DNA of 64,000 nt. Origin: Geodermatophilus sabuli (GTDB lineage: Bacteria; Actinomycetota; Actinomycetes; Mycobacteriales; Geodermatophilaceae). The notes beneath the pieces are model-generated. The model worked only from the letters and a program-made list of their open reading frames with translations. It had not been told where the DNA came from and made no database searches. The translations under genes and the position numbers were made by a program. The stretch is from the NCBI RefSeq assembly GCF_010686765.1, contig NZ_JAAGWF010000015.1:62001-126000 (forward strand), in the 5' to 3' direction. The stretch's first letter is position 1; every line of letters starts with the position of its first letter. Of the stretch, positions 916 through 47,190 are shown in pieces.

Positions 916-1296
916 TCAGCGGGCGGTCTCCCACAGCCCGACGACGTTGCCCTCGGGGTCGGTGAAGTAGGCGGCGAAGCCCATGTCGCCGACCGGTGTC
1001 CTCCCGACGACCGTGGAGCCGCCGAGGCCCCCGATCTTCTCGAGGGCCGTCTCGATGCTGTCCACGTCGACGACCAGGACCGGGCCGCTGGTGGCCGCCT
1101 GCGCGCGGGACAGCATGCCGCCGTTGATGAAGCCGGCCTCGCTCGGGCCGCTGTCGTCGCCGGGGCCGGTCATGACGATCGTGTAGCCCATCTCGGGCAT
1201 CTCCATGGTCCGCCAGCCGAAGGCCTCCTCGTAGAAGCCCCGCGCCCGGTCCCCGTCGTCGAACGGGACCTCGAAGTGCACGACCCGACCGCTCAT
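916..1296 (-). CDS. VOC-family (glyoxalase/bleomycin-resistance fold) protein
   Basis: 126 residues from ATG 1296. The opening VVHFEVPFDDGDRARGFYEEAFGW is cut here only in part: residues 5-28 are the first beta-alpha-beta module of a VOC fold, and GFAAYFTDPEGNVVGLWE near the C terminus is the second module with the usual DPEGN turn and a metal-ligand-type glutamate. Such single-domain proteins are often dioxygenase- or glyoxalase-like, but no specific reaction can be assigned. It lies downstream of the folP2-like gene on the same strand, separated by a duplicated palindrome, so it probably has its own promoter. Confidence 0.85.
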   Translation of the reverse strand: MSGRVVHFEVPFDDGDRARGFYEEAFGWRTMEMPEMGYTIVMTGPGDDSGPSEAGFINGGMLSRAQAATSGPVLVVDVDSIETALEKIGGLGGSTVVGRTPVGDMGFAAYFTDPEGNVVGLWETAR

Positions 1297-1459: not shown

Positions 1460-2359
1460 TCAGGCGAGGCCGCGGACGGTGCGCAGCGGCGGCCGGTCGC
1501 CCCGGATGGCGGCCACCATGTCCAGCGTCTGCCGGGTCGGTGCGACGTCGTGCGCGCGGAACACCGTCGCACCCAGCCACGCACTCACCGCGGTCGCCGC
1601 CAGCGTGCCGGTGAGCCGGTCGTCGAGGGGGACGTCGAGGGTCTCCCCGACGAAGTCCTTGTTCGACAGCGCCACGAGCACCGGCCAGCCGGTGCCGACG
1701 AGCTCGTCCAGGCGCCGGGTGGTCTCCAGCGAGTGGCGGGTGTTCTTGCCGAAGTCGTGCCCCGGGTCGACCAGCACCCGTTCCCGGTCGACACCGGCCG
1801 CGACGGCGGCCTCCGCCAGCGCCGTCGTCCGCCCGACCACGTCGGCGACCACGTCGTCGTAGGTGACCCGGTGCGGCCGGGTGCGCGGCGGCAGCCCGCC
1901 GGCGTGCGTGCAGACGATCCCGGCCCCGGCCTCGGCGGCCACGGCGGCCAGCTCGGGGTCGACCCCACCCCAGGCGTCGTTGACCACGTCGGCGCCGGCC
2001 GCGAGTGCCTCCCTCGCCACCTCGGCCCGCCAGGTGTCGATGGAGATGGGCAGCGTCGGGTGGGCGGTGCGGATGGCCGCGACCAGGCCGACGGTGCGGC
2101 GGATCTCCTCGGCGGCGTCGACGTCGTCACCCGGGGCGGCCTTGACCCCGCCGACGTCCACCATGTCCGCGCCCTCGGCCACCACCCGGTCGACCCGCTC
2201 GAGCGCCGCGGCCAGCTGGTAGGTGGCGCCGCGGTCGTAGAACGAGTCGGGGGTGCGGTTGACGATCGCCATGACGACGAACCGGCCGGCCGGCACGTCG
2301 AGGGCCCCCAGGCGCAGCAACCGGCCCCCCGTTCGGTCCGTGTGGTGGAGTCCCGCCAA
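1460..2359 (-). CDS. folP2: Dihydropteroate synthase homologue, FolP2 type
   Basis: TIM-barrel protein of the dihydropteroate synthase family. The sequence follows mycobacterial FolP2 rather than FolP1: MAIVNRTPDSFYDRGATY, DMVDVGGVKAAPGD, ISIDTWRAEVA, VNDAWGGVDPEL, VLVDPGHDFGKNTRHSLE, ALSNKDFVGETL and the C-terminal RTVRGLA are all recognisable from memory of the family. FolP2 proteins have been reported to lack measurable DHPS activity, so a role in folate synthesis is not assured. A TTG at 2359 (299 aa) fits where similarity begins; the frame stays open to 2518, and the low-complexity upstream part looks non-coding. There is no clear ribosome-binding site, so the start is uncertain. Confidence 0.85.
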   Translation of the reverse strand: MAGLHHTDRTGGRLLRLGALDVPAGRFVVMAIVNRTPDSFYDRGATYQLAAALERVDRVVAEGADMVDVGGVKAAPGDDVDAAEEIRRTVGLVAAIRTAHPTLPISIDTWRAEVAREALAAGADVVNDAWGGVDPELAAVAAEAGAGIVCTHAGGLPPRTRPHRVTYDDVVADVVGRTTALAEAAVAAGVDRERVLVDPGHDFGKNTRHSLETTRRLDELVGTGWPVLVALSNKDFVGETLDVPLDDRLTGTLAATAVSAWLGATVFRAHDVAPTRQTLDMVAAIRGDRPPLRTVRGLA

Positions 2360-29575: not shown

Positions 29576-30508
29576 CTGTCCCGCCGACCCCGCCACCTCG
29601 CCGCCGGCGATCCGCACCGCGCCCCCACTCGTCCCGGTCGCCTGCAGGACACGCTGCAGACCCGGGGGCCCTTCGCGCTGTTCTTCCTGGCCGGGTTCCT
29701 GTGCGCCGCCGCGGTGGCCATGATCCTGTTCGGCCCGTCCCCCGAGCGGACCGGCGGCGCCTCGGCCGGGGGGCAGGACGTCGCCGAGGAGGGCATCGGC
29801 ACCGCGGCCCGCGCCTCGTCGGCGGCCGGGGGCCGGGCGTCCTCGATGACGCGCGGATCGTCGGGAGCCGACGCTGACGGGACGGCCGACGGCGCCGACC
29901 CTGCCGGCGCTCCGGGCGGTGTGCCCGGTGCCGTGTCCGGCGCCGTGCCCGGTGCGCCCGCCGGGACCCCGGGGCAGCCGGCGGTGGAGTCGGGGCGGAC
30001 CGCGGATCCGGGGCAGGCGCCGGCAGAGCCCGGGACGCCGTCCGGTCCGCCGGCCGGCCCGGGCGGTGAGGCGGCGGGTCAGGCCGCCGGCCCCGCACCG
30101 GACCAAGGCGAGGGCCCGGCGAGCGACCCGGCGGCGACCGGCGCCGCGGCGACCACCGCCGCGAGCCGGACCGAGGCAGCGCCCGCCACCGGCCGCCCCC
30201 CGACCGCCGGCGCTCCCACGGGACCCGCGGCCGAGGGTCCCCGTGCGGCGCCGGTGCCCCGGCCGGGTGTGCCGACCCGGACGCCGTCCGGCCCGCCGGC
30301 TCCGGCTCCCCCTCCCGCCCCGGCTCCGGCACCTGCCCCCGCCCCGGCGCCGGCTCCTGCCCCGGCACCTGCTCCCGCCCCGGCACCTGCTCCCGCCCCG
30401 GCACCTGCCCCCGCGCCCGGTGGCGACTGTCTGTGCGACGTCGTCGAGGACGTCACCGGCGGGGTGGGGACCGTCGTGGGTGGGGTCGTCGGCGGCCTCG
30501 TCCCGTGA
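29576..30508 (+). CDS. Membrane-anchored Ala/Pro-rich protein, CTG start
   Basis: 310 residues if translation begins at CTG 29576, where AAGGAG lies seven bases upstream and no ATG/GTG/TTG is available before the single membrane helix (FALFFLAGFLCAAAVAMILF, residues about 37-56). A start at GTG 29714 would cut the helix in half. The exposed part is low-complexity: Gly/Ala/Pro/Thr-rich, with a run of Ala-Pro dipeptides at about residues 245-285 (30300-30420), ending in a conserved-looking CLCDVVEDVTGGVGTVVGGV tail. Such Pro/Ala segments usually span the cell wall. Function unknown. It resembles in build the frameshifted gene at 53.8 kb. Confidence 0.7.
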   Translation: MSRRPRHLAAGDPHRAPTRPGRLQDTLQTRGPFALFFLAGFLCAAAVAMILFGPSPERTGGASAGGQDVAEEGIGTAARASSAAGGRASSMTRGSSGADADGTADGADPAGAPGGVPGAVSGAVPGAPAGTPGQPAVESGRTADPGQAPAEPGTPSGPPAGPGGEAAGQAAGPAPDQGEGPASDPAATGAAATTAASRTEAAPATGRPPTAGAPTGPAAEGPRAAPVPRPGVPTRTPSGPPAPAPPPAPAPAPAPAPAPAPAPAPAPAPAPAPAPAPAPAPGGDCLCDVVEDVTGGVGTVVGGVVGGLVP

Positions 30509-30529
30509 CCGGCTGTTCCGCGGTCGCAC

Positions 30530-30535
30530 TAGGTT
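30530..30535 (+). promoter_or_regulatory. Candidate -10 element of menB, leaderless type
   Basis: TAGGTT seven bases before the ATG at 30543 and no Shine-Dalgarno. The hexamer and spacing are the same as at the thioesterase gene at 0.8 kb. A GTGACC 19 bp upstream is a weak -35 candidate. Confidence 0.4.
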
Positions 30536-30542
30536 CGCTCGC

Positions 30543-31460
30543 ATGAGCGCCCGCCCCGACGTCTCCGAGATCTTCGACAGCGCCGCGTGGGAGCCGGTCG
30601 CGGGCTTCGACTTCGCCGACCTCACCTACCACCGCGCCGTGGACGCCGGCGTGGTCCGGATCGCGTTCGACCGGCCGGAGGTCCGCAACGCGTTCCGCCC
30701 GCAGACCGTCGACGAGCTGATCGCCGCCTTGGAGCACGCGCGGCTGTCCACCGACGTCGGCTGCGTGCTCCTCACCGGCAACGGACCCAGCCCCAAGGAC
30801 GGCGGCTGGGCCTTCTGCTCCGGCGGCGACCAGCGGGTGCGCGGGAAGTACGGCTACGAGTACGGCGGCGCTCAGGCGGCTGGGGCCGGTGCGGGCGGTG
30901 GAGGACAGGGCCGGCTGCACGTCCTCGAGGCGCAGCGGCTGATCCGCTTCATGCCCAAGGTCGTCATCTGCGTCGTCCCCGGGTGGGCCGCCGGGGGCGG
31001 GCACAGCCTGCACGTCGTCTCCGACCTCACCCTGGCCAGCGCCGAGCACGCCCGGTTCAAGCAGACCGACGCCGACGTCGGCAGCTTCGACGGTGGCTTC
31101 GGCTCGGCCTACCTCGCCCGTCAGGTGGGCCAGAAGTTCGCCCGCGAGATCTTCTTCCTCGGCGACGAATACACCGCCGCCGACGCGCACGCGATGGGCA
31201 TGGTCAACCGCGTCGTCCCCCACGCCGAACTCGAGGCCACCGCGCTGGACTGGGGTCGGCGGATCGTGGCCAAGAGCCCGACGGCGCAGCGGATGCTCAA
31301 GTACTCGTTCAACCTGATCGACGACGGTCTGGTCGGGCAGCAGCTGTTCGCCGGGGAGACCACCCGGCTGGCCTACATGGCCGAGGAGGCGGTGGAGGGC
31401 CGCGACGCCTTCCTGGAGAAGCGGGATCCCGACTTCACCCGCTTCCCCTGGCACGTGTAG
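30543..31460 (+). CDS. menB: 1,4-dihydroxy-2-naphthoyl-CoA synthase
   Basis: 305 residues, crotonase fold. It catalyses the ring closure of o-succinylbenzoyl-CoA in menaquinone biosynthesis. Diagnostic MenB segments are present: VRIAFDRPEVRNAFRPQTVD, WAFCSGGDQRVRGKYGYEYG, VPGWAAGGGHSLHVVSDLTL, FKQTDADVGSFDGGFGSAYL (the YxxDxxxFDGG region with catalytic Asp) and the C-terminal EKRDPDFTRFPWHV. The 10-residue longer loop rich in Gly/Ala after YEYGG is typical of actinobacteria. The gene stands alone here without other men genes and ends with TAG, showing that UAG works as a stop codon in this organism. Confidence 0.97.
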   Translation: MSARPDVSEIFDSAAWEPVAGFDFADLTYHRAVDAGVVRIAFDRPEVRNAFRPQTVDELIAALEHARLSTDVGCVLLTGNGPSPKDGGWAFCSGGDQRVRGKYGYEYGGAQAAGAGAGGGGQGRLHVLEAQRLIRFMPKVVICVVPGWAAGGGHSLHVVSDLTLASAEHARFKQTDADVGSFDGGFGSAYLARQVGQKFAREIFFLGDEYTAADAHAMGMVNRVVPHAELEATALDWGRRIVAKSPTAQRMLKYSFNLIDDGLVGQQLFAGETTRLAYMAEEAVEGRDAFLEKRDPDFTRFPWHV

Positions 31461-34988: not shown

Positions 34989-37139
34989 TCACACCCGGGC
35001 GTCGTCCCGCTGCAGCGCGGTGGCGCTGAGCGGTCCGACCGTCGCGCCCTCGCCGGTCGGCTCCGGATGGCCCAGGTCGGTCAGCCAGCCGCGGAACACC
35101 CGGTGCAGCCGCTCGGCGCCGACCACCTCGCCGGGCGGCCGGAACGAGCGGGGGTGCAGCAGGAAGCCGTGCTGCTGGGCCCCCCCGAGGCCGCCGTGCG
35201 AGCCCACGTGCGGCTCGAACGCCGAGGCCTCGTCGGTGTCGGGGTCGTAGCGGCTGTTGATGACGACGTCGGCGCAGGTCGCGAACCCCGACATCCGTGT
35301 CACCAGCCCGGCCGCGTGCACGCCGTAGACAGCGAGGGGGTCCTCGCCGATGACGATGCCCGTGGTCAGCCGGTGCAGCCCCTCGCGGCCGAGGACGACC
35401 GGCCCGAACTCCTCGGAGTGCACGAGCAGGAAGCCGACGCCGTCGTGGTCGACCAGGCCGGGCAGCAACCCGGGCCAGTGCCGCTCGATCTCCTCCAGCG
35501 ACACCCGGCCGGGGATGTCGGGGAACGAGACCATCGCGGTGTGCCCGGACACGGCCACGACCACGCCGGGCGCCACCCGGGGCACCGAACCGGCCCGCTC
35601 GGGCAGCTCGTGCGAGTGCGGCACGTCGGCGGCGCGCTCGACCCGTTCGCGCAGCCGGCGGGCGATCGGTCCGGCGCTCTCCGCCAGCGCGGCACCGACC
35701 TGCCAGGCCTCGGTGAGCCGGCGGCTGTCGCGCGGGCCGGTCAGGTGCGGCTCCGGCAGCGCGCCGGGTGCGCCGCAGAGCCGGCCGACCAGCTCCTCGA
35801 TCGACTCCCCGAACCGGGCGGCGAACGCCTCGCCCTGGGTCTGCCCGTGGTCGGAGAGGCAGACCAGGTGGTACTCCCGCGGGGCCAGCTGGGCGGCCCG
35901 GTGCAGCCGGCCGATCTGCTGGTCGATGGTGCGCAGCACCGCGAGGCTGTCGGCGCGCTCCAGGCCCGCGTGGTGGGCGGCCTCGTCGTAGCCGAGGAAG
36001 TCCGCGTAGGCGACGGGTCGCCCCGCCATCATGTCCTCGAGCAGGGCGAACACGACGACGTCGCGCGCGATCACCGTCGTCCCCGGACGGGCGAGGGGGT
36101 AGATGCCGCCGCGGGACACCCGCGGCCGGACGTCGTCGCGGCGCTCCCGGGCCGCGGCGAGCAGCTCGCGGTGGATGTCCACGGCCGACACCGCGATGGT
36201 CCGCAGCGCGTTCACCGGGTTGGCGAAGTAGGCGTAGTACCCGGAGCCCACCCGCTCCCGGGCCTGCCGGGCGCGCCGGCTGGTCGCGGGGACGACGTGC
36301 GAGAGCGAGCTCATCGTCAGGCTCACGTGCGCCGCGTCGCCGGTGAACAGGTTGCCCCGGCTCGCGCCGCCGCCGGAGAGCAGGCCGCGGCCGTCGGAGT
36401 GCGCGCGCTCGAGCTCCGCGGCGTCCAGCGGGGAGGAGACGCGGACCATCCGGTCGCGGGCCTTGTCGTACCAGCGGAAACCGGGGATGTCCTGGTTGGA
36501 GCCGTGCAGGATGCCCATGACAGCCGCGCCGGTCTGCGAGCTCCAGTCGGTGTGCCAGGAGGTCAGCGCGTGGCTGCCCGAGCGCAGCCACGCGGCCAGG
36601 TTGGGCATGGAGCCGTCCCGGACGGCGCGGCGGGCGGTGTCGAAGGACAGCGCGTCGATCTGCAGGAACACCACGCCGGGGGGCAGCGGCGCAGCCCCCG
36701 GCGTCGGGCGGGCCCGGCGGCGGGCGCGGCGGAAGAACAGCTCGTCCTCGTCGATGGCCAGCACGCTGCTGACCAGCCCGGAGACCGCGGCCATCCCGAC
36801 CCCGACGGTGACCGCGGTGCGCAGGTTCTCGATGACCACGCCGGGGACGAGGAACGACAGCCCCAGCACCGCCGCCCCGAGCAGCAGGAAGCTGCCCAGG
36901 CCGAGGGTGAGGAAGGCCAGCGGCAGCGCGATCCGCATGACCAGCGGCCAGACCACGGCGGTGAGCAGCCCCAGGAGCAGCGCGATCACCGGCGGCTGCC
37001 ACCAGGAGTCCATGGTGAAGTCGGCCAGCCACGAGTCCAGCGCGGCCAGCGCGGCGGTGGTGGCGAGCCAGGTGAGCAGCACGCGGGCCGGCGTACGGCC
37101 CCGCCGCACCACCCGGCCCGGGGTGGCGGGACGGGTCAT
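34989..37139 (-). CDS. Membrane protein with holin-like helices and type I phosphodiesterase/alkaline phosphatase domain
   Basis: 716 residues from ATG 37139, whose ATGA overlaps the stop codon of the DedA gene. Residues 20-125 hold three to four membrane helices of the phage-holin (superfamily IV) type (PPVIALLLGLLTAVVWPLVM). Residues 150-690 are an alkaline-phosphatase-superfamily domain: GVVFLQIDALSFDTARRAV (metal-ligand Asp), TSWHTDWSSQTGAAVMGILH with the nucleophile position, ADFLGYDEAAHHAG and CLSDHGQTQGEAF (Asp-His pair). The catalytic domain would face outside or inside depending on topology; targets may be lipid or teichoic-type phosphodiesters. Related two-part proteins are common in actinobacteria but poorly studied. 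Confidence 0.85.
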   Translation of the reverse strand: MTRPATPGRVVRRGRTPARVLLTWLATTAALAALDSWLADFTMDSWWQPPVIALLLGLLTAVVWPLVMRIALPLAFLTLGLGSFLLLGAAVLGLSFLVPGVVIENLRTAVTVGVGMAAVSGLVSSVLAIDEDELFFRRARRRARPTPGAAPLPPGVVFLQIDALSFDTARRAVRDGSMPNLAAWLRSGSHALTSWHTDWSSQTGAAVMGILHGSNQDIPGFRWYDKARDRMVRVSSPLDAAELERAHSDGRGLLSGGGASRGNLFTGDAAHVSLTMSSLSHVVPATSRRARQARERVGSGYYAYFANPVNALRTIAVSAVDIHRELLAAARERRDDVRPRVSRGGIYPLARPGTTVIARDVVVFALLEDMMAGRPVAYADFLGYDEAAHHAGLERADSLAVLRTIDQQIGRLHRAAQLAPREYHLVCLSDHGQTQGEAFAARFGESIEELVGRLCGAPGALPEPHLTGPRDSRRLTEAWQVGAALAESAGPIARRLRERVERAADVPHSHELPERAGSVPRVAPGVVVAVSGHTAMVSFPDIPGRVSLEEIERHWPGLLPGLVDHDGVGFLLVHSEEFGPVVLGREGLHRLTTGIVIGEDPLAVYGVHAAGLVTRMSGFATCADVVINSRYDPDTDEASAFEPHVGSHGGLGGAQQHGFLLHPRSFRPPGEVVGAERLHRVFRGWLTDLGHPEPTGEGATVGPLSATALQRDDARV

Positions 37140-37849
37140 GCCGGTCCGCAGGGTGAGCGGTCCGGATCCGTCTCGTGGGGGCGTCGGGCCGGCGGGATCC
37201 GGCCCGATCCGACGCGGCCCCGGTCCTCGTCGTCCGCCGGTGGCTCCGGGTGCCCGTCGTGTCCCGCCGAGCGCCGGCGTCGCGAGCTCACCGCGTTGAG
37301 CACCGCACCGACGAGGAGCACCAGCCCGGTGGCCAGCAGGACGGCGGTCAGCGGCGAGTCGAAGACGCCGCCGCTGACGACCCCGAGCAGCGCGTAGGCC
37401 ACCGCCCAGAGGAAGGCGGCCAGCAGCGAGGCAGGGAGCAGCCGCCGCCACGGGTAGGCCAGGGCGCCCGCGGCCAGCAGCACCGGGATCCGTCCCGCGG
37501 GCAGCAGCCGGCCCGCGACGACGATCTGCCAGCCGTGCCGGCGGAACTGGTCGCGGACCTCCTCGATCCGTTCGGCGTGCTGGCCCCGGGCGACCCAGCG
37601 GACCGCCGACGGGCCGCCGAACCGGCAGATCGCGAAGGTGACGACGTCCCCGATCCAGGCGGCCAGGGTGGCGACCGCCACCACCAGCGGCAGGTTCAGG
37701 CCGTGCGCGGTGACCGCGAAGGCCGCCCCCGCGCCGACCAGGGCGCCGGTCGGCACCACGGGCACGACCGAGCCGAGCAGCACGCCGCCGAAGAGCACCG
37801 GGTAGCCGATCGCCGAACCGTCGGTCCACGCCGCGGCGAGCGCGCTCAC
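37136..37849 (-). CDS. DedA/VTT-family membrane protein
   Basis: 237 residues from GTG/ATG 37849. Features of the DedA superfamily are VVPVVPTGALVGAGAAFAVT, FAICRFGGPSAVRWVARGQH, and the R-x-x-P/G segment VVAGRLLPAGRIPVLLAAGA with the functionally important arginine. About five membrane helices; the last 45 residues are polar and charged. DedA proteins act as phospholipid or undecaprenyl-phosphate scramblases/flippases. Overlaps by 4 nt with both neighbours, in the middle of a three-gene envelope operon. Confidence 0.9.
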   Translation of the reverse strand: MSALAAAWTDGSAIGYPVLFGGVLLGSVVPVVPTGALVGAGAAFAVTAHGLNLPLVVAVATLAAWIGDVVTFAICRFGGPSAVRWVARGQHAERIEEVRDQFRRHGWQIVVAGRLLPAGRIPVLLAAGALAYPWRRLLPASLLAAFLWAVAYALLGVVSGGVFDSPLTAVLLATGLVLLVGAVLNAVSSRRRRSAGHDGHPEPPADDEDRGRVGSGRIPPARRPHETDPDRSPCGPA

Positions 37850-41737: not shown

Positions 41738-44700
41738 GTGAAGACGTGGCTCGATGCGTGGCCGGTGTTCCGGCAGCTGACCGGCTCCGATCCGCTCGGA
41801 CGCGGCAGCGCCGCCCGCAGCAAGGCGACCGAGAACGTGGTGAGCCGGACGGCCACCGCCGACCGCGTCGTCCAGAGCGTCTGCCCCTACTGCGCGGTGG
41901 GCTGTGGCCAGCGGATCTACGTGAAGGACGAGCGGATCGTCCAGATCGAGGGCGATCCGGACTCGCCGATCAGCCGCGGGCGGCTGTGCCCCAAGGGCAG
42001 CGCGAGCAAGCAGTTGGTGACCAGCCCGACGCGGGTCACCACGGTCCGGTACCGCCGTCCGTTCGGGACGGAGTGGGAGGACCTCGAACTCGACACGGCG
42101 ATGGAGATGATCGCCGACCGCGTCCTCGAGGCCCGGCGGAAGGGCTGGCAGGACGAGCACGAGGGCAAGCGCGTCAACCGGACCATGGGAGTAGCGAGCC
42201 TCGGAGGGGCGACCCTCGACAACGAGGAGAACTACCTCATGAAGAAGCTCTACAGCGCCCTCGGCGCGATCCAGATCGAGAACCAGGCGCGCATATAGCA
42301 CTCCTCCACGGTCCCCGGTCTGGGGTCCTCGTTCGGACGTGGCGGTGCCACGAACTTCCAGGAAGACCTGGCGAACTCCGACTGCATCGTCATCGAGGGT
42401 TCGAACATGGCCGAGTGCCACCCGGTGGGCTTCCAGTGGGTGATGGAGGCCAAGGCGCGCGGCGCCAAGGTCATCCACATCGACCCCCGGTTCACCCGGA
42501 CCAGCGCGGTCGCCGACCTGCACGTGCCCATCCGCGCCGGCGCGGACATCGCGTTCCTCGGCGGCCTGATCAAGTACGTGCTGGACAACGAGCTGTACCT
42601 CGAGGAGTACGTCCGCGCCTACACCAACGCGTCCGCGCTGGTGAGCGAGGACTTCGTCGACACCGAGGACCTCGGGGGCGTCTTCTCCGGCTTCGACCCC
42701 GAGCAGGGGCACTACGACGAGGCCAGCTGGCAGTACGAGCCTGAGGAGCCGCCGCACTCGGGCTCCGACGACCCGCAGGGCGCCGCCGAGCAGAAGGCAC
42801 TCGAGCAGGACGACGACGTCAAGTCCGCGGACCGGGCGCAGGCGTCCGGCAGCGGCGGGCCCCCGATCGCGGCCAAGCCGATGCGCGACGAGACCCTGCA
42901 GCACCCGCGCAGCGTCTTCCAGGTGCTCAAGCGGCACTTCGACCGCTACACGCCCGAGATGGTCGCCGAGGTGTGCGGCATCGAGCCCGAGGTGTTCCAC
43001 CAGGTCGCCCGCTGGGTGACGGAGAACAGCGGGCGCGAGCGGACGACGGCGTGGGTGTACTCGGTCGGCTGGACGCAGCACAGCGTCGGCGCGCAGTACA
43101 TCCGCACCGCCTCGATCCTGCAGACCCTGCTGGGCAACATCGGCCGACCGGGCGGCGGGATCCTGGCGCTGCGCGGGCACGCCAGCATCCAGGGTTCCAC
43201 CGACGTCCCGACGCTGTTCAACCTGCTGCCCGGCTACCTGCCGATGCCGCACGCCGCCCAGCACCAGTCGCTGGACGACTACGTCGCCGACGCCGCCGGC
43301 AAGGGTGGCTTCTGGGGCAACAAGCGGGCCTACACCGTCAGCCTCCTCAAGGCCTGGTTCGGGGACGCAGCAGGGCCGGAGAACGACTTCTGCTTCGGCC
43401 ACCTGCCCAAGATCAGCGGGGACCACAGCTCCTACCGCACGATCGCCGACATGATCGAGGGGAAGGTCTCGGGCTACTTCCTGGTCGGGGAGAACCCCTC
43501 GGTCGGACACCCGAACGGGCGGATGAACCGCTTCGGGCTGGCCAACCTCGACTGGCTCGTCGTCCGCGACCTGCAGATGATCGAGTCGGCGACGTTCTGG
43601 AACGAGTCCCCCGAGATCGAGACCGGCGAACTGGCACCGGAGACGATCGGGACCGAGGTCTTCTTCATGCCCGCGGCCACGCACGCGGAGAAGGACGGCA
43701 CCTTCACCCAGACGCAGCGGCTGCTGCAGTGGCGGCACAAGGCGGTCGAGCCGCCGGGCGATGCCCGCAGCGACCTGTGGTTCTACTTCCACCTCGGCCG
43801 CATCCTGCGGGAGCGGCTCAAGGACTCCACCGACCCACGCGACCGCGCGCTGCTCGACCTCACCTGGGACTACCCGGTCGAGGGCGAGACCCAGGACCCG
43901 AGCGCCGCGGCGGTCCTCCGGGAGATCAACGGGGTGGGCCCGGACGGTCGGGCGCTCTCGGGGTACATGGAGCTCAAGGACGACGGGTCCACGTCGTCCG
44001 GCTGCTGGATCTACTCCGGGGTCTACGCCGACGAGGTCAACCAGGCCGCGCGGCGCAAGCCCGGTCGCGAGCAGGGGCCGGTCCCGACCGAGTGGGGCTG
44101 GGCCTGGCCGTACAACCGGCGCATCCTCTACAACCGCGCCTCCGCCGACCCGGCCGGCCGGCCCTGGAGCGAGCGCAAGGCCTACGTCTGGTGGGACGAG
44201 GAGGCCGGGCGCTGGACAGGCCTGGACAACCCGGACTTCGAGGCGACCAAGCGGCCGGACTACGTGCCACCGGAGGGCGCCAAGGCCCAGGACGCCATCG
44301 CCGGGACCGACCCCTTCGTCATGCAGGGCGACGGGAAGGCCTGGCTGTACGCGCCCGCCGGCCTGGTCGACGGCCCGCTGCCGACGCACTACGAGCCGGT
44401 GGAGTCGGTGGTGGAGAACGGCCTGTACGAGCAGCAGGCCAGCCCCACGATCGAGCGGATCCCGGGGCCGTGGAACCGGGAGAACCCCTCCCGCAGCGAG
44501 GTCTTCCCGTTCCAGGTGACCACCTACCGGCTGACCGAGCACCACACGGCCGGCGGGATGAGCCGCACGCTGCCCTACCTCGCCGAGCTCCAGCCGGAGT
44601 TCTTCGTCGAGGTCAGCCCGGAGCTGGCGGAGCTGCGCGGGCTGACCAACGGGGAGTACGCGACGCTGGTCAGCACCCGGACGGCGATCGAGGCCAAGGT

Positions 44701-45028
44701 GCTGGTCACCGAGCGGATGCGGCCGATCAAGCTGGGCGGCGGTCAGGTCGTCCACCAGATCGGCATGCCGTACCACTGGTCCTACAGCGGCATCTCGACC
44801 GGCGACTCGGCCAACGACCTGCTCGGCATCGCCCTCGACGCGAACACCCACATCCAGGAGGACAAGGTCAGCACCGCCGACATCCGGCCGGGGCGCCGGC
44901 CCCGCGGGCCGGAGCTCCTCGAGTTCGTCGAGTCCTACCGCCGGCGAGCCGGGGTGGAATCGGGTCGGGTCGGCGTGAACGGCCGCGACCCCGTCGAGGC
45001 CTCGGCCGGCGAGGGGTCGACGCAGTGA
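41738..45028 (+). CDS. fdhA: Formate dehydrogenase catalytic subunit, selenoprotein with UAG-encoded selenocysteine 187
   Basis: One frame of 1097 codons interrupted only by TAG at codon 187. Upstream residues 1-186 include the [4Fe-4S] ligands Cys49, Cys52, Cys56 and Cys84 (SVCPYCAVGCG, GRLCPKGSAS) and GVASLGGATLDNEENYLMKK; the last residues before the TAG are AIQIENQARI, exactly where FdnG/FdoG-type enzymes have selenocysteine, and the codons after it give the catalytic His188 (HSSTVPGLGSSFGRGGATNF). The downstream part has FQWVMEAKARGAKVIHIDPR, the molybdopterin domains, and the C-terminal TSTRTAIEAKVLVTE-like molydopterin-binding region. It oxidises formate to CO2 at a Mo/W-bis-MGD centre coordinated by Sec. 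No Tat signal is visible. GTG 41738 abuts an AGGAG, and homologues begin here. Confidence 0.93.
42296..42298 (+). other. In-frame UAG at the selenocysteine position
   Basis: The codon order is CAG GCG CGC ATA TAG CAC: Gln-Ala-Arg-Ile-[Sec]-His. In other selenocysteine formate dehydrogenases this position is UGA. A single base change from UGA cannot explain the intact downstream 910 codons and SECIS hairpin unless UAG is read as an amino acid. UAG-decoding tRNA-Sec (anticodon CUA) has been reported in Geodermatophilus and Blastococcus; the tRNA itself is not in this window. Confidence 0.93.
42299..42328 (+). promoter_or_regulatory. Bacterial SECIS hairpin directing UAG recoding
   Basis: Twelve bases after the TAG begins a hairpin: GG-T-CCCC (42310-42316), loop GGTCT (42317-42321), GGGG-T-CC (42322-42328). 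Counting the UAG as 1-3, the unpaired U17 and loop bases G23 and U24 fall at the same positions as in the E. coli fdhF SECIS, where they contact SelB. The loop GGUCU is identical to the E. coli loop core. Confidence 0.9.
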
Positions 45029-45050: not shown

Positions 45051-46118
45051 ATGACCTCGATCAGCTCGGCGAGCCCGGCCTTCACCGGCCGCGACCCGGA
45101 CAACCGGCTGTTCGGCCCGCTGCCGGACGTGCAGGGCGAGGCCGGCTACGACGACGACCACCCGGCCCGGGTCGGCTTCTTCACCGACACCTCGGTCTGC
45201 ATCGGCTGCAAGGCCTGCGAGGTGGCCTGCAAGGAGTGGAACCTCCTGCCGATGGACGACTCGCACGGCGCGCGAGACGTCATCGGGCTGTCGGGGATGT
45301 CCTACGACAACACCGGGCAGCTGGGCGCCAACAGCTGGCGGCACGTGGCGTTCATCGAGCAGAGCCGGACCGTGGACCTGCCGATGCCCGCCGTCGGTCT
45401 GCCCGGCGCGACCCGGCAGGACTCCGGCCCGTCGGCGGCCAACGCGACCGGGGACAGCCTGGCCCACGCGCAGCAGTCCAGCGTGCTCAACGCCGAGGCG
45501 CTCAGCGAGTTCGACCCGCAGACCGGGCAGACCGGGGCGGACAAGCAGATCCGCTGGCTGATGAGCTCCGACGTGTGCAAGCACTGCACGCACGCCGGGT
45601 GCCTCGACGTCTGCCCCACCGGCGCGCTGTTCCGCACCGAGTTCGGCACCGTGGTCGTCCAGGGCGACATCTGCAACGGCTGCGGCTACTGCGTGCCGTC
45701 CTGCCCCTACGGCGTGATCAACCAGCGCAAGGACGACGGCCGGGTGTTCAAGTGCACCCTGTGCTACGACCGGCTGACCGACGGCCTGCAGCCGGCCTGC
45801 GCGACGGCGTGCCCGACCCAGTCCATCCAGTTCGGCAACCTCGACGAGCTGCAGGCCCGGGCCGACGCCCGGCTGGCCACGCTCAAGGAGCAGGGCGTGG
45901 AGACCGCCCGGCTCTACGGCCGCGACGAGAACGACGGCGTGGGCGGCAACGGCGCCTTCTTCCTGCTGCTGGACGAGCCGGAGGTCTACGGGCTGCCGCC
46001 GGACCCCATCGTCACGACCCGGGACCTGCCGGCCATGTGGCGGGCGGCCGCGGCGGGTGCGGCGATGATCGTCGGCGTGGCCCTGTCCGCCGTCCTCGGC
46101 TCGCGGAGGCCCCGATGA
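45051..46118 (+). CDS. fdhB: Formate dehydrogenase iron-sulfur (beta) subunit
   Basis: 355 residues, four [4Fe-4S] clusters. The first ligands are Cys50, 53, 56 and 60 (SVCIGCKACEVACKEW); further sets are CKHCTHAGCLDVCPTGALF, CNGCGYCVPSCPYGVIN and CTLCYDRLTDGLQPACATAC. A C-terminal hydrophobic segment (AAAAGAAMIVGVALSAVLG) anchors it in the membrane, as in FdnH. It relays electrons from the selenoprotein subunit to the NrfD-like subunit. It starts 22 bp after the catalytic gene with GAGAGGAGG upstream. An insertion between clusters (residues 65-170, Gln/Ser-rich) is typical for actinobacterial versions. Confidence 0.95.
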   Translation: MTSISSASPAFTGRDPDNRLFGPLPDVQGEAGYDDDHPARVGFFTDTSVCIGCKACEVACKEWNLLPMDDSHGARDVIGLSGMSYDNTGQLGANSWRHVAFIEQSRTVDLPMPAVGLPGATRQDSGPSAANATGDSLAHAQQSSVLNAEALSEFDPQTGQTGADKQIRWLMSSDVCKHCTHAGCLDVCPTGALFRTEFGTVVVQGDICNGCGYCVPSCPYGVINQRKDDGRVFKCTLCYDRLTDGLQPACATACPTQSIQFGNLDELQARADARLATLKEQGVETARLYGRDENDGVGGNGAFFLLLDEPEVYGLPPDPIVTTRDLPAMWRAAAAGAAMIVGVALSAVLGSRRPR

Positions 46119-46120
46119 CA

Positions 46121-46144
46121 GGGCCTTCGTGGCCAGGAAGGCCG
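46121..46144 (+). promoter_or_regulatory. Intra-operon hairpin between fdhB and the NrfD-like gene
   Basis: GGCCTTC (46122-46128), loop GTGGCCAG, GAAGGCC (46137-46143): a perfect 7-bp stem immediately after the fdhB stop codon and directly before the ribosome-binding site of the next gene. It could tune expression of the membrane subunit or protect the upstream mRNA. Same style as the hairpin at 31460. Confidence 0.5.
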
Positions 46145-46155
46145 GAGGAGGCGGC

Positions 46156-47190
46156 GTGACCGAGGGAGTGGCGACGCCGGGCGCGGGCTGGCGCCGGGCG
46201 GACGGGCCGCCGTCCCAGCGACGGCAGAAGCGCCGGCGCCGGGGCGGGGGACGTCCCGGCGGCGAGGTGGCGATGGTCGAGGAGGCCGAGTTCACCTCCT
46301 ACTACGGCCGTCCGATCATCAAGCCGCCGGTGTGGAAGACGCCGGACGTGCCGCTGTACCTCTTCCTCGGCGGTGCCGCCGGCTCGTCAGCGGTCCTCGG
46401 TGCGATCGCCGACCTCAGCGGCCGGCCGGGCCTGACCCGGGCGGCCCGGTACGTGGCCGGTGGTGGCTCGATCGCCTCGGTCGGCTTCCTGATCCACGAC
46501 CTGGGCCGGCCCGAGCGGTTCCTGCACATGCTGCGGGTGATCAAGGTGACCTCGCCGCTGTCGGTCGGCACCTACATCCTGTCGCCGTTCAGCGCGGCGG
46601 CCGGTGCGACCGCGGCGGTGGAGCTGCTGGGCTGGTTCCCGCGGCTGAAGCGGTTCGGCGGCATCGTGTCGGGGCTGTTCGGCGGTCCGATGGCCACCTA
46701 CACCGCCGTGCTGCTGGCCAACACCGCCGTCCCGTCGTGGCACGCGTTCCACACCCGGCTGCCGTTCGTGTTCGGCGGCTCGGCGATGGCCGCCGGCGGT
46801 GGGCTGTGCATGGCGCTGGCGCCGCTGGCGGAGTCCGAGCCGGCCCGGAAGATGGCCATCATCGGAGCCGGCATCGAACTGGCCGCCGTCCGCGGCGTGG
46901 AGAACGACGAGAGCGTCGTGTCCGAGCCGTACCACATCGGCCGGGCGGGGACGTTCATGCGGGCCGCCAAGGCCTGCACCGCCACCGGCCTGGGGCTGGC
47001 CGTCCTCGGCGGGCGGACGCGGGTGGGGGCGGTCGCGTCCGGCGTCCTGCTCGCGGCCGGGTCGCTGCTCACCCGGTTCGGCGTCTTCGACGCGGGCATG
47101 GCCAGCGCGAGGGACCCGAAGTACACCGTGGTCCCGCAGCGGGAGCGCATGGCGGCCCGGGAGGCCGGGGTCCACTCCGTCACCCGCTGA
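46156..47190 (+). CDS. NrfD/PsrC-type membrane subunit of formate dehydrogenase
   Basis: 344 residues from GTG 46156, GGAGGAGG five bases upstream. A 50-residue cytoplasmic leader rich in Arg/Gly is followed by about eight membrane helices: VPLYLFLGGAAGSSAVLGAI, GGGSIASVGFLIHDLGRP, SVGTYILSPFSAAAGATAAV, FGGPMATYTAVLLANTAVPS and others. The SYYGRPIIKPPVWKTPDVP segment before helix 1 is typical of NrfD proteins. Unlike FdnI it is not a four-helix b-type cytochrome; electrons would go directly to (mena)quinone, which fits MenB in the same genome. Third gene of the fdh operon. Confidence 0.92.
   Translation: MTEGVATPGAGWRRADGPPSQRRQKRRRRGGGRPGGEVAMVEEAEFTSYYGRPIIKPPVWKTPDVPLYLFLGGAAGSSAVLGAIADLSGRPGLTRAARYVAGGGSIASVGFLIHDLGRPERFLHMLRVIKVTSPLSVGTYILSPFSAAAGATAAVELLGWFPRLKRFGGIVSGLFGGPMATYTAVLLANTAVPSWHAFHTRLPFVFGGSAMAAGGGLCMALAPLAESEPARKMAIIGAGIELAAVRGVENDESVVSEPYHIGRAGTFMRAAKACTATGLGLAVLGGRTRVGAVASGVLLAAGSLLTRFGVFDAGMASARDPKYTVVPQRERMAAREAGVHSVTR

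Follow-up and report, generated by a model that had tools for sequence, protein, structure and literature searches.

The α-subunit gene of a formate dehydrogenase (FDH) in Geodermatophilus sabuli most probably uses UAG as a selenocysteine (Sec) codon: with a probability of roughly 0.94, the in-frame TAG at its codon 187 would be read as Sec by means of a tRNA-Sec with anticodon CUA, SelA, SelD, SelB and a predicted SECIS-type hairpin. The gene lies in a window of 64,000 nucleotides (the whole stretch of DNA that was analysed) on contig C114; the genome measures 4.8 Mb, is divided into 122 contigs and is 99.99% complete. An earlier note had proposed this recoding from the letters of the window, and the proposal is now supported by the place of the TAG, a CUA tRNA-Sec, selA, selB and selD in the same genome, the hairpin and two UAG-bearing genes of the UGSC family. 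UAG-coded selenocysteine with a tRNA-Sec(CUA) was reportedly described in Geodermatophilaceae by Mukai et al. in 2016. In the accessible part of PMC5330540 (citing Mukai 2016), UAG-coded Sec with a CUA tRNA is attributed to FDH, UGSC and AhpC genes of this family, the AhpC gene with UAG being that of Blastococcus saxobsidens; the kind of recoding had thus already been reported, as the note said, and the FDH of the window is a further case of the published system. Judged by that part of the source, the two share the CUA tRNA-Sec, the UAG in FDH and UGSC-motif genes and the family itself, and no difference in mechanism was found.

Read again, the plus-strand frame holds, as first described, 1097 codons (1096 residues and a final TGA), in which the TAG is the sole internal stop, flanked as before by ENQARI and HSSTVPG (ENQARI*HSSTVPG). 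The read-through protein matches NF041513 (formate dehydrogenase) with 1919.7 bits over residues 4-1070 (cut-off 1400) and TIGR01553 with 927.5 bits (cut-off 814.2), as an α subunit of FDH-N type does. Codon 187 aligns with residue X of the solved Escherichia coli FDH-N (1kqf_A, NQARVXHGP) and of 1h0h_A, a residue that we take to be Sec in both, in line with the claim that the stop stands at the Sec position of FdnG/FdoG-type enzymes; the gene has in this respect the in-frame UAG at a selenoprotein Sec position that marks UAG-coded Sec systems of the Geodermatophilaceae type. Two further statements of the note, that the cofactor ligands and the codons 3' of the TAG are intact, agree with what was found: Cys 49, 52, 56 and 84, presumably the cysteines of the 4Fe-4S site, are retained, and 909 codons downstream of the TAG stay open with a coding-like composition. 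The GTG start shares one base with an AGGAGG, an overlap that leaves its position uncertain. Genes for α, β and γ follow one another in this order (table 1), and a promoter scan found nothing. E. coli FDH-N (FdnG, PDB 1kqf) belongs to the same enzyme family and carries Sec at the aligned position; its SECIS lies within the reading frame just downstream of the Sec codon, and E. coli inserts Sec by UGA and a UCA anticodon, unlike the UAG and CUA of the window.

Table 1. Features of the FDH locus in the window and of the UCA tRNA-Sec locus in Geodermatophilus marinus LHW52908 (G058)
Feature	Position	Strand	Basis or remark
Formate dehydrogenase α subunit	41738..45028	+	Read through TAG at codon 187; profile match and structure alignment
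ATA Ile codon immediately 5' of TAG	42293..42295	+	Precedes every UAG read in FDH relatives; rare elsewhere
In-frame TAG, selenocysteine position	42296..42298	+	Frame reading, relatives, alignment with solved FDHs
Predicted SECIS hairpin (stem of 7 positions; GGUCU as apical loop, +22 to +26 from T of TAG)	42310..42328	+	Loop of relatives and covariation
Formate dehydrogenase β subunit (4Fe-4S electron transfer)	45051..46118	+	Profile match
NrfD-type membrane (γ) subunit, start uncertain	about 46129..47190	+	PF03916, 30.2 bits
UCA tRNA-Sec	L199 (G058:C17) 1173-1263		Beside UGA-interrupted gene on IS-rich island
UGA-interrupted CMD-family gene	L199 (G058:C17) 1579-2154		PF02627, 28.2 bits vs 23

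Mechanical ORF calling yields pieces of 186 and 873 aa from the α gene, the split foreseen in the note, and these pieces are what speaks for two separate proteins, made by termination at the UAG and re-initiation, for instance at the ATG at 42407. Such an arrangement is very improbable, since it would divide a single catalytic subunit whose alignment with solved FDHs runs through the site, would omit the residue at the Sec position, and would need neither a tRNA-Sec nor a SECIS element.

Both of the latter are present or predicted. The note had asked for a selC tRNA with anticodon CUA and for selA, selB and selD, and all four were found in the genome. The tRNA-Sec with anticodon CTA (CUA) at G000:C10:94586-94677 scores 64.2 bits with Rfam (gathering threshold 47); the same curated threshold is passed at one other place in the genome, with 47.9 bits, by what ARAGORN calls tRNA-Ser(TGA). 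Directly after the CUA tRNA follow selA (416.9 bits) and selB (278.7 bits), both above their cut-offs, the selB model being matched at positions 2-355 of 581, with the expected SECIS-binding part outside the matched stretch; selD (388.2 bits, above cut-off) lies 1.5 kb upstream on the opposite strand. The genome most probably carries a UAG-coded Sec system of the Geodermatophilaceae type. The claim that the locus shows this system completely stands for the genome and fails for the window, as the tRNA and the sel genes are on another contig. ARAGORN labels the CUA tRNA as tRNA-Pyl, so that automatic annotation may call it by that name, and the label is the one point in favour of UAG being decoded as pyrrolysine or by another amber suppressor. 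Against this stand the Rfam score for tRNA-Sec, the place of the tRNA immediately 5' of selA and selB, the Sec carried by homologues at the position of codon 187, and a best pylS match in the genome of 23.9 bits with a cut-off of 178.15; we consider decoding of this kind still less probable than two separate proteins.

Downstream of the Sec codon, the predicted hairpin begins at +15, counted from the first base of the stop codon, and has the general form GGUNCCC-GGUCU-GGGNNCC in FDH. With identical contexts counted once, every distinct context that holds a stop codon has a loop RGUNU at +22 to +26 (UAG-FDH, 57 of 57; UGA-FDH, 37 of 37; UAG-UGSC, 36 of 36); among UGSC contexts with Cys, 0 of 9 have it. 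In 39 UAG-FDH sequences (25 distinct), 98.9% of the cells of the stem pair, compared with 90.5% on shuffling, and the covariation score is 0.264 versus 0.112, neither value being reached in 500 shuffles; sliding the stem by 1-3 columns lowers the score to 0.03 or less. Pair 18-30, which joins a Val codon and a Gly codon at their third positions, is C-G in 11 sequences, G-U in 10, G-C in 3 and U-A in 1. Two other measures are weaker: pairs changed on both sides number 2 (40/500 shuffles as high) and further pair types 5 (14/500); the sequences are related. In the window itself, pair 17-31 of the stem is a U.U mismatch, unique at this pair in the 57 UAG contexts, and the hairpin has a folding energy no better than that of shuffled sequence (z 0.01; 92/200 shuffles as good). 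The hairpin is thus predicted from the position of its loop and from covariation in relatives, with one mismatch and an ordinary energy in the window itself.

The Sec reading of UAG suggests the following course. The CUA tRNA-Sec would be charged through SelA and SelD; SelB would bring the Sec-tRNA to the UAG, helped by presumed recognition of the downstream hairpin; Sec would be inserted at residue 187, and formate would be oxidised by the α-β-γ complex. Release factor 1 would compete at the UAG of codon 187, and partial termination there is a likely side product.

A family-wide search gave 126 listed FDH matches, of which 118 span residue 187 and 8 do not; a TAG lies inside every one of the 118, scored by number of stops, and its place itself was read in 71 distinct contexts. 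A stop in a long frame resembles decay, and a disabling mutation or sequencing error that left the gene broken is the least probable reading of all, set against this constancy of the TAG, the open and coding-like downstream codons and the covariation of the hairpin at synonymous sites. Side observations on these matches include the loci L196 and L197 (G105 contig C5 and G111 contig C52), where the FDH α match falls into two pieces within one long open frame, as if there were an insertion or a divergent stretch near residues 330-350, and L185 and L186 (G079 contigs C12 and C4), where FDH α consists of two pieces that start near residue 200 and have other stops inside. Double recoding, by UGA as well as UAG, was considered for the FDH of G061, G052, G024, G009, G029 and G037, whose matches counted one TGA and one TAG as internal stops, and rejected, as the TGA is the ordinary C-terminal stop in the six stretches.

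A comparison with UGA-containing homologues was also suggested in the note. In 80 named FDH loci (the best 80 of 586 relatives), the Sec codon is TAG in 38 and TGA in 42; among these best 80, the TAG loci are named Geodermatophilus, Blastococcus, Modestobacter, Klenkia, Goekera or Trujillonella, genera that we take to be Geodermatophilaceae, and all the TGA loci are named as other actinobacteria. The FDH protein tree (81 rows) has a single change between TAG and TGA, with support 100. The CUA tRNA core occurs in 101 of 112 genomes of the family, namely in 101/103 of the nine genera with TAG genes and in 0/9 of the genera g5, g6 and g7; the 11 genomes that lack it are these nine and G097 and G098, which are 72 and 80% complete. 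A UCA tRNA-Sec is found in 7 of the 9 genomes of g5-g7 (G067 gave no match and G071 tRNA-Ser only), and selA and selB were found in L203, L206, L207 and L209 among their loci (L203-L209). Codon and anticodon thus occur together, TAG in FDH with the CUA tRNA genera and the UCA tRNA in the genera without CUA. The SelA tree, of 39 rows (35 CUA and 4 UCA genomes, after removal of matches shorter than 300 columns and of four duplicate loci), likewise has a single CUA/UCA change. An exact pattern of the CUA tRNA, which could miss diverged forms outside the family, was met in 0 of 392 sampled genomes of the class outside the family and in both family members sampled. These distributions are consistent with a single replacement of UCA/UGA by CUA/UAG in an ancestor shared by the nine genera, as far as unrooted trees and genus and family codes assigned by the tool can suggest; UCA/UGA is taken as ancestral because other actinobacteria use UGA. 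The nine genomes of the genera that keep UCA gave no match to an FDH of the window's type at E <= 1e-100, so the switch of the FDH codon cannot be traced within the family, and no UGA selenoprotein gene with the loop was seen beside selAB in the 7 contigs of g5-g7 scanned.

Beyond FDH, the UGSC family (PF24696) has four matches in the window's genome. Two of them, at C15:27848-28357 and C60:32711-33214, carry one in-frame TAG, which falls on the U of UGSC in the motif; in the other two, which are without it, the codon at that place is TGC. Over the family, TAG is found in 72 of the 95 rows listed, no stop in 23 and TGA in none; loci were read for 50 of the 95 rows, five of them giving no counted context (L223, L224, L225 and L226 without the motif, L260 a duplicate). 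In-frame TAG candidates were scanned in a part of the genome, the window and four other stretches (L009, L244, L245 and L246): the window has 15, with an RGUNU loop at the FDH one only, and all five stretches have 54, with the loop at 3, which are FDH and the two UGSC genes. Of 72 coding-like ORFs in the same stretches, 6 end in TAG, one of them being the FDH piece and another an enoyl-CoA hydratase gene. UAG is recoded at chosen sites, with no genome-wide reassignment, because the enoyl-CoA hydratase gene at 29919-31460 of the window ends normally in TAG, its domain match running up to residue 507 of 513. Elsewhere in the window, an ORF at 34989-37829 (-) is matched by two Pfam families, one of four-TMS phage holins and one of phosphodiesterases.

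The codon just before the Sec codon is itself unusual. It is ATA in 57 of 57 distinct UAG-FDH contexts; in 37 UGA-FDH contexts it is ATT 32 times, ATA 4 times and GTT once. The other Ile codons are ATC 2199, ATA 36 and ATT 7 in the UAG genes (ATA 1.6%), and ATC 1431, ATT 35 and ATA 14 in the UGA genes. The third-position G+C share at codon -1 is 0.00 in both sets of longer contexts (71 UAG, 40 UGA); in the UAG set, the remaining 24 upstream codons have shares of 0.86-1.00, and within 25 codons a share of 0.00 recurs at +7 alone, the loop U. In UGSC genes, the Asp codon before UAG is GAT in 24 of 36 contexts, as compared with 7 GAT and 308 GAC elsewhere in the same genes (binomial P 2e-31, an overstated value since related sequences are not independent); GAC stands before UAG in the other 12 of 36, and before Cys in 9 of 9 Cys-UGSC contexts. 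Codon -1 looks to be under selection, because many genera, and two gene families that are not related to each other, keep an A or U there in spite of the base composition. One possible reason is weaker release at the stop through a particular P-site tRNA or wobble pair. CTAG is rare in the window, with 8 copies where 37.4 are expected (ratio 0.21), and its avoidance, which could disfavour ATC-TAG, possibly fits part of the pattern; as a full reason it fails, leaving ATT before TGA and GAC-TAG in 12/36 UGSC contexts unaccounted for. A fourth base pair with tRNA position 37 was likewise discarded by reasoning, as it fits U before UGA and fails for A before UAG. No report of an effect of the upstream codon was found in the open-licence literature, including the accessible part of PMC4513850.

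One relative carries both tRNAs. Geodermatophilus marinus LHW52908 (G058), which shares its genus code with the window's genome, has the CUA tRNA, selA and selB on C11, and its UAG genes for FDH and UGSC are on C70 and C67, respectively; its C70 FDH stretch is identical over 3,300 bases to NZ_QVQH01000008.1 (Geodermatophilus sp. LHW52908; in the taxonomy, Geodermatophilus marinus). On C17 it also has a UCA tRNA-Sec (81.8 bits), about 300 bases from a CMD-family gene with an in-frame TGA at residue 98 (CFY*MESH). A perfect 7-bp hairpin starts at +14 after this TGA; its energy does not improve on that of shuffled sequence (z -0.44), and the only reading with an RGUNU loop puts this loop two bases closer to the stop codon than it is in FDH. 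At the place of the TGA, 120 listed CMD homologues of 174 have W in 58, C in 34, L in 1 and an unmatched motif in 27, and W stands in four of the nearest five among those listed (52-59% identical); the W may reflect TGA read by another code in metagenome annotation. Within the family, no other CMD match (E <= 1e-15) has an internal stop or more than 40% identity. SelA, SelB and SelD gave no match on C17, and G058 has one SelB above cut-off. The first 12 kb of C17 contain transposase genes and have a tetranucleotide correlation with other G058 stretches of 0.73, compared with 0.89-0.91 for the rest of C17 and 0.74-0.86 for loci of other genera; the island is probably mobile. Contamination is unlikely because C17 carries the sole dxs found in G058, 86-88% identical to that of three other genomes searched. 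In viral contigs, 8 stretches matched a pattern for P0002 relatives, none of them confirmed, and phages gave no match; the UCA tRNA piece was not found in viral contigs.

From these sequences it seems likely that a mobile selenoprotein gene arrived in a UAG-Sec host together with a tRNA of its own that reads UGA, and G. marinus LHW52908 may use two Sec codons, UAG and UGA, in one cell, a situation of which we found no report among the literature listings searched. A broader proposal, to which we give slightly less than an even chance, would take codon -1 as the upstream half of the Sec signal (a rare A/U-ending codon, with A before UAG and mostly U before UGA in FDH), SelA and SelB as indifferent to the stop, and G. 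marinus, with its imported UCA tRNA-Sec and UGA selenoprotein gene, as reading both UAG and UGA as Sec. The selected codon -1, the genera that keep UCA and the relative with both tRNAs are additions to what the accessible part of PMC5330540 contains.

Overall, the FDH gene is a clear case from nature of one stop codon carrying two meanings, split by ORF calling and served by a tRNA labelled Pyl by ARAGORN. The comparative data also make two matters open to test: the role of codon -1 in the contest with the release factor, and the route by which UGA gave way to UAG as the Sec codon of a lineage, given the genera that keep UCA and a possible two-codon relative. A linked counterpart is seen in Tsukamurella plasmid 17 and Arthrobacter pYA7-1a (L301 and L302), where fdh α, β and nrfD adjoin selA, selB, selD and a stretch resembling the UCA tRNA-Sec of G058, in one cassette, whereas fdh and sel lie on different contigs in the window's genome. 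The tRNA-Sec-like match is unannotated in these plasmids, and the Arthrobacter one is typed as conjugative.
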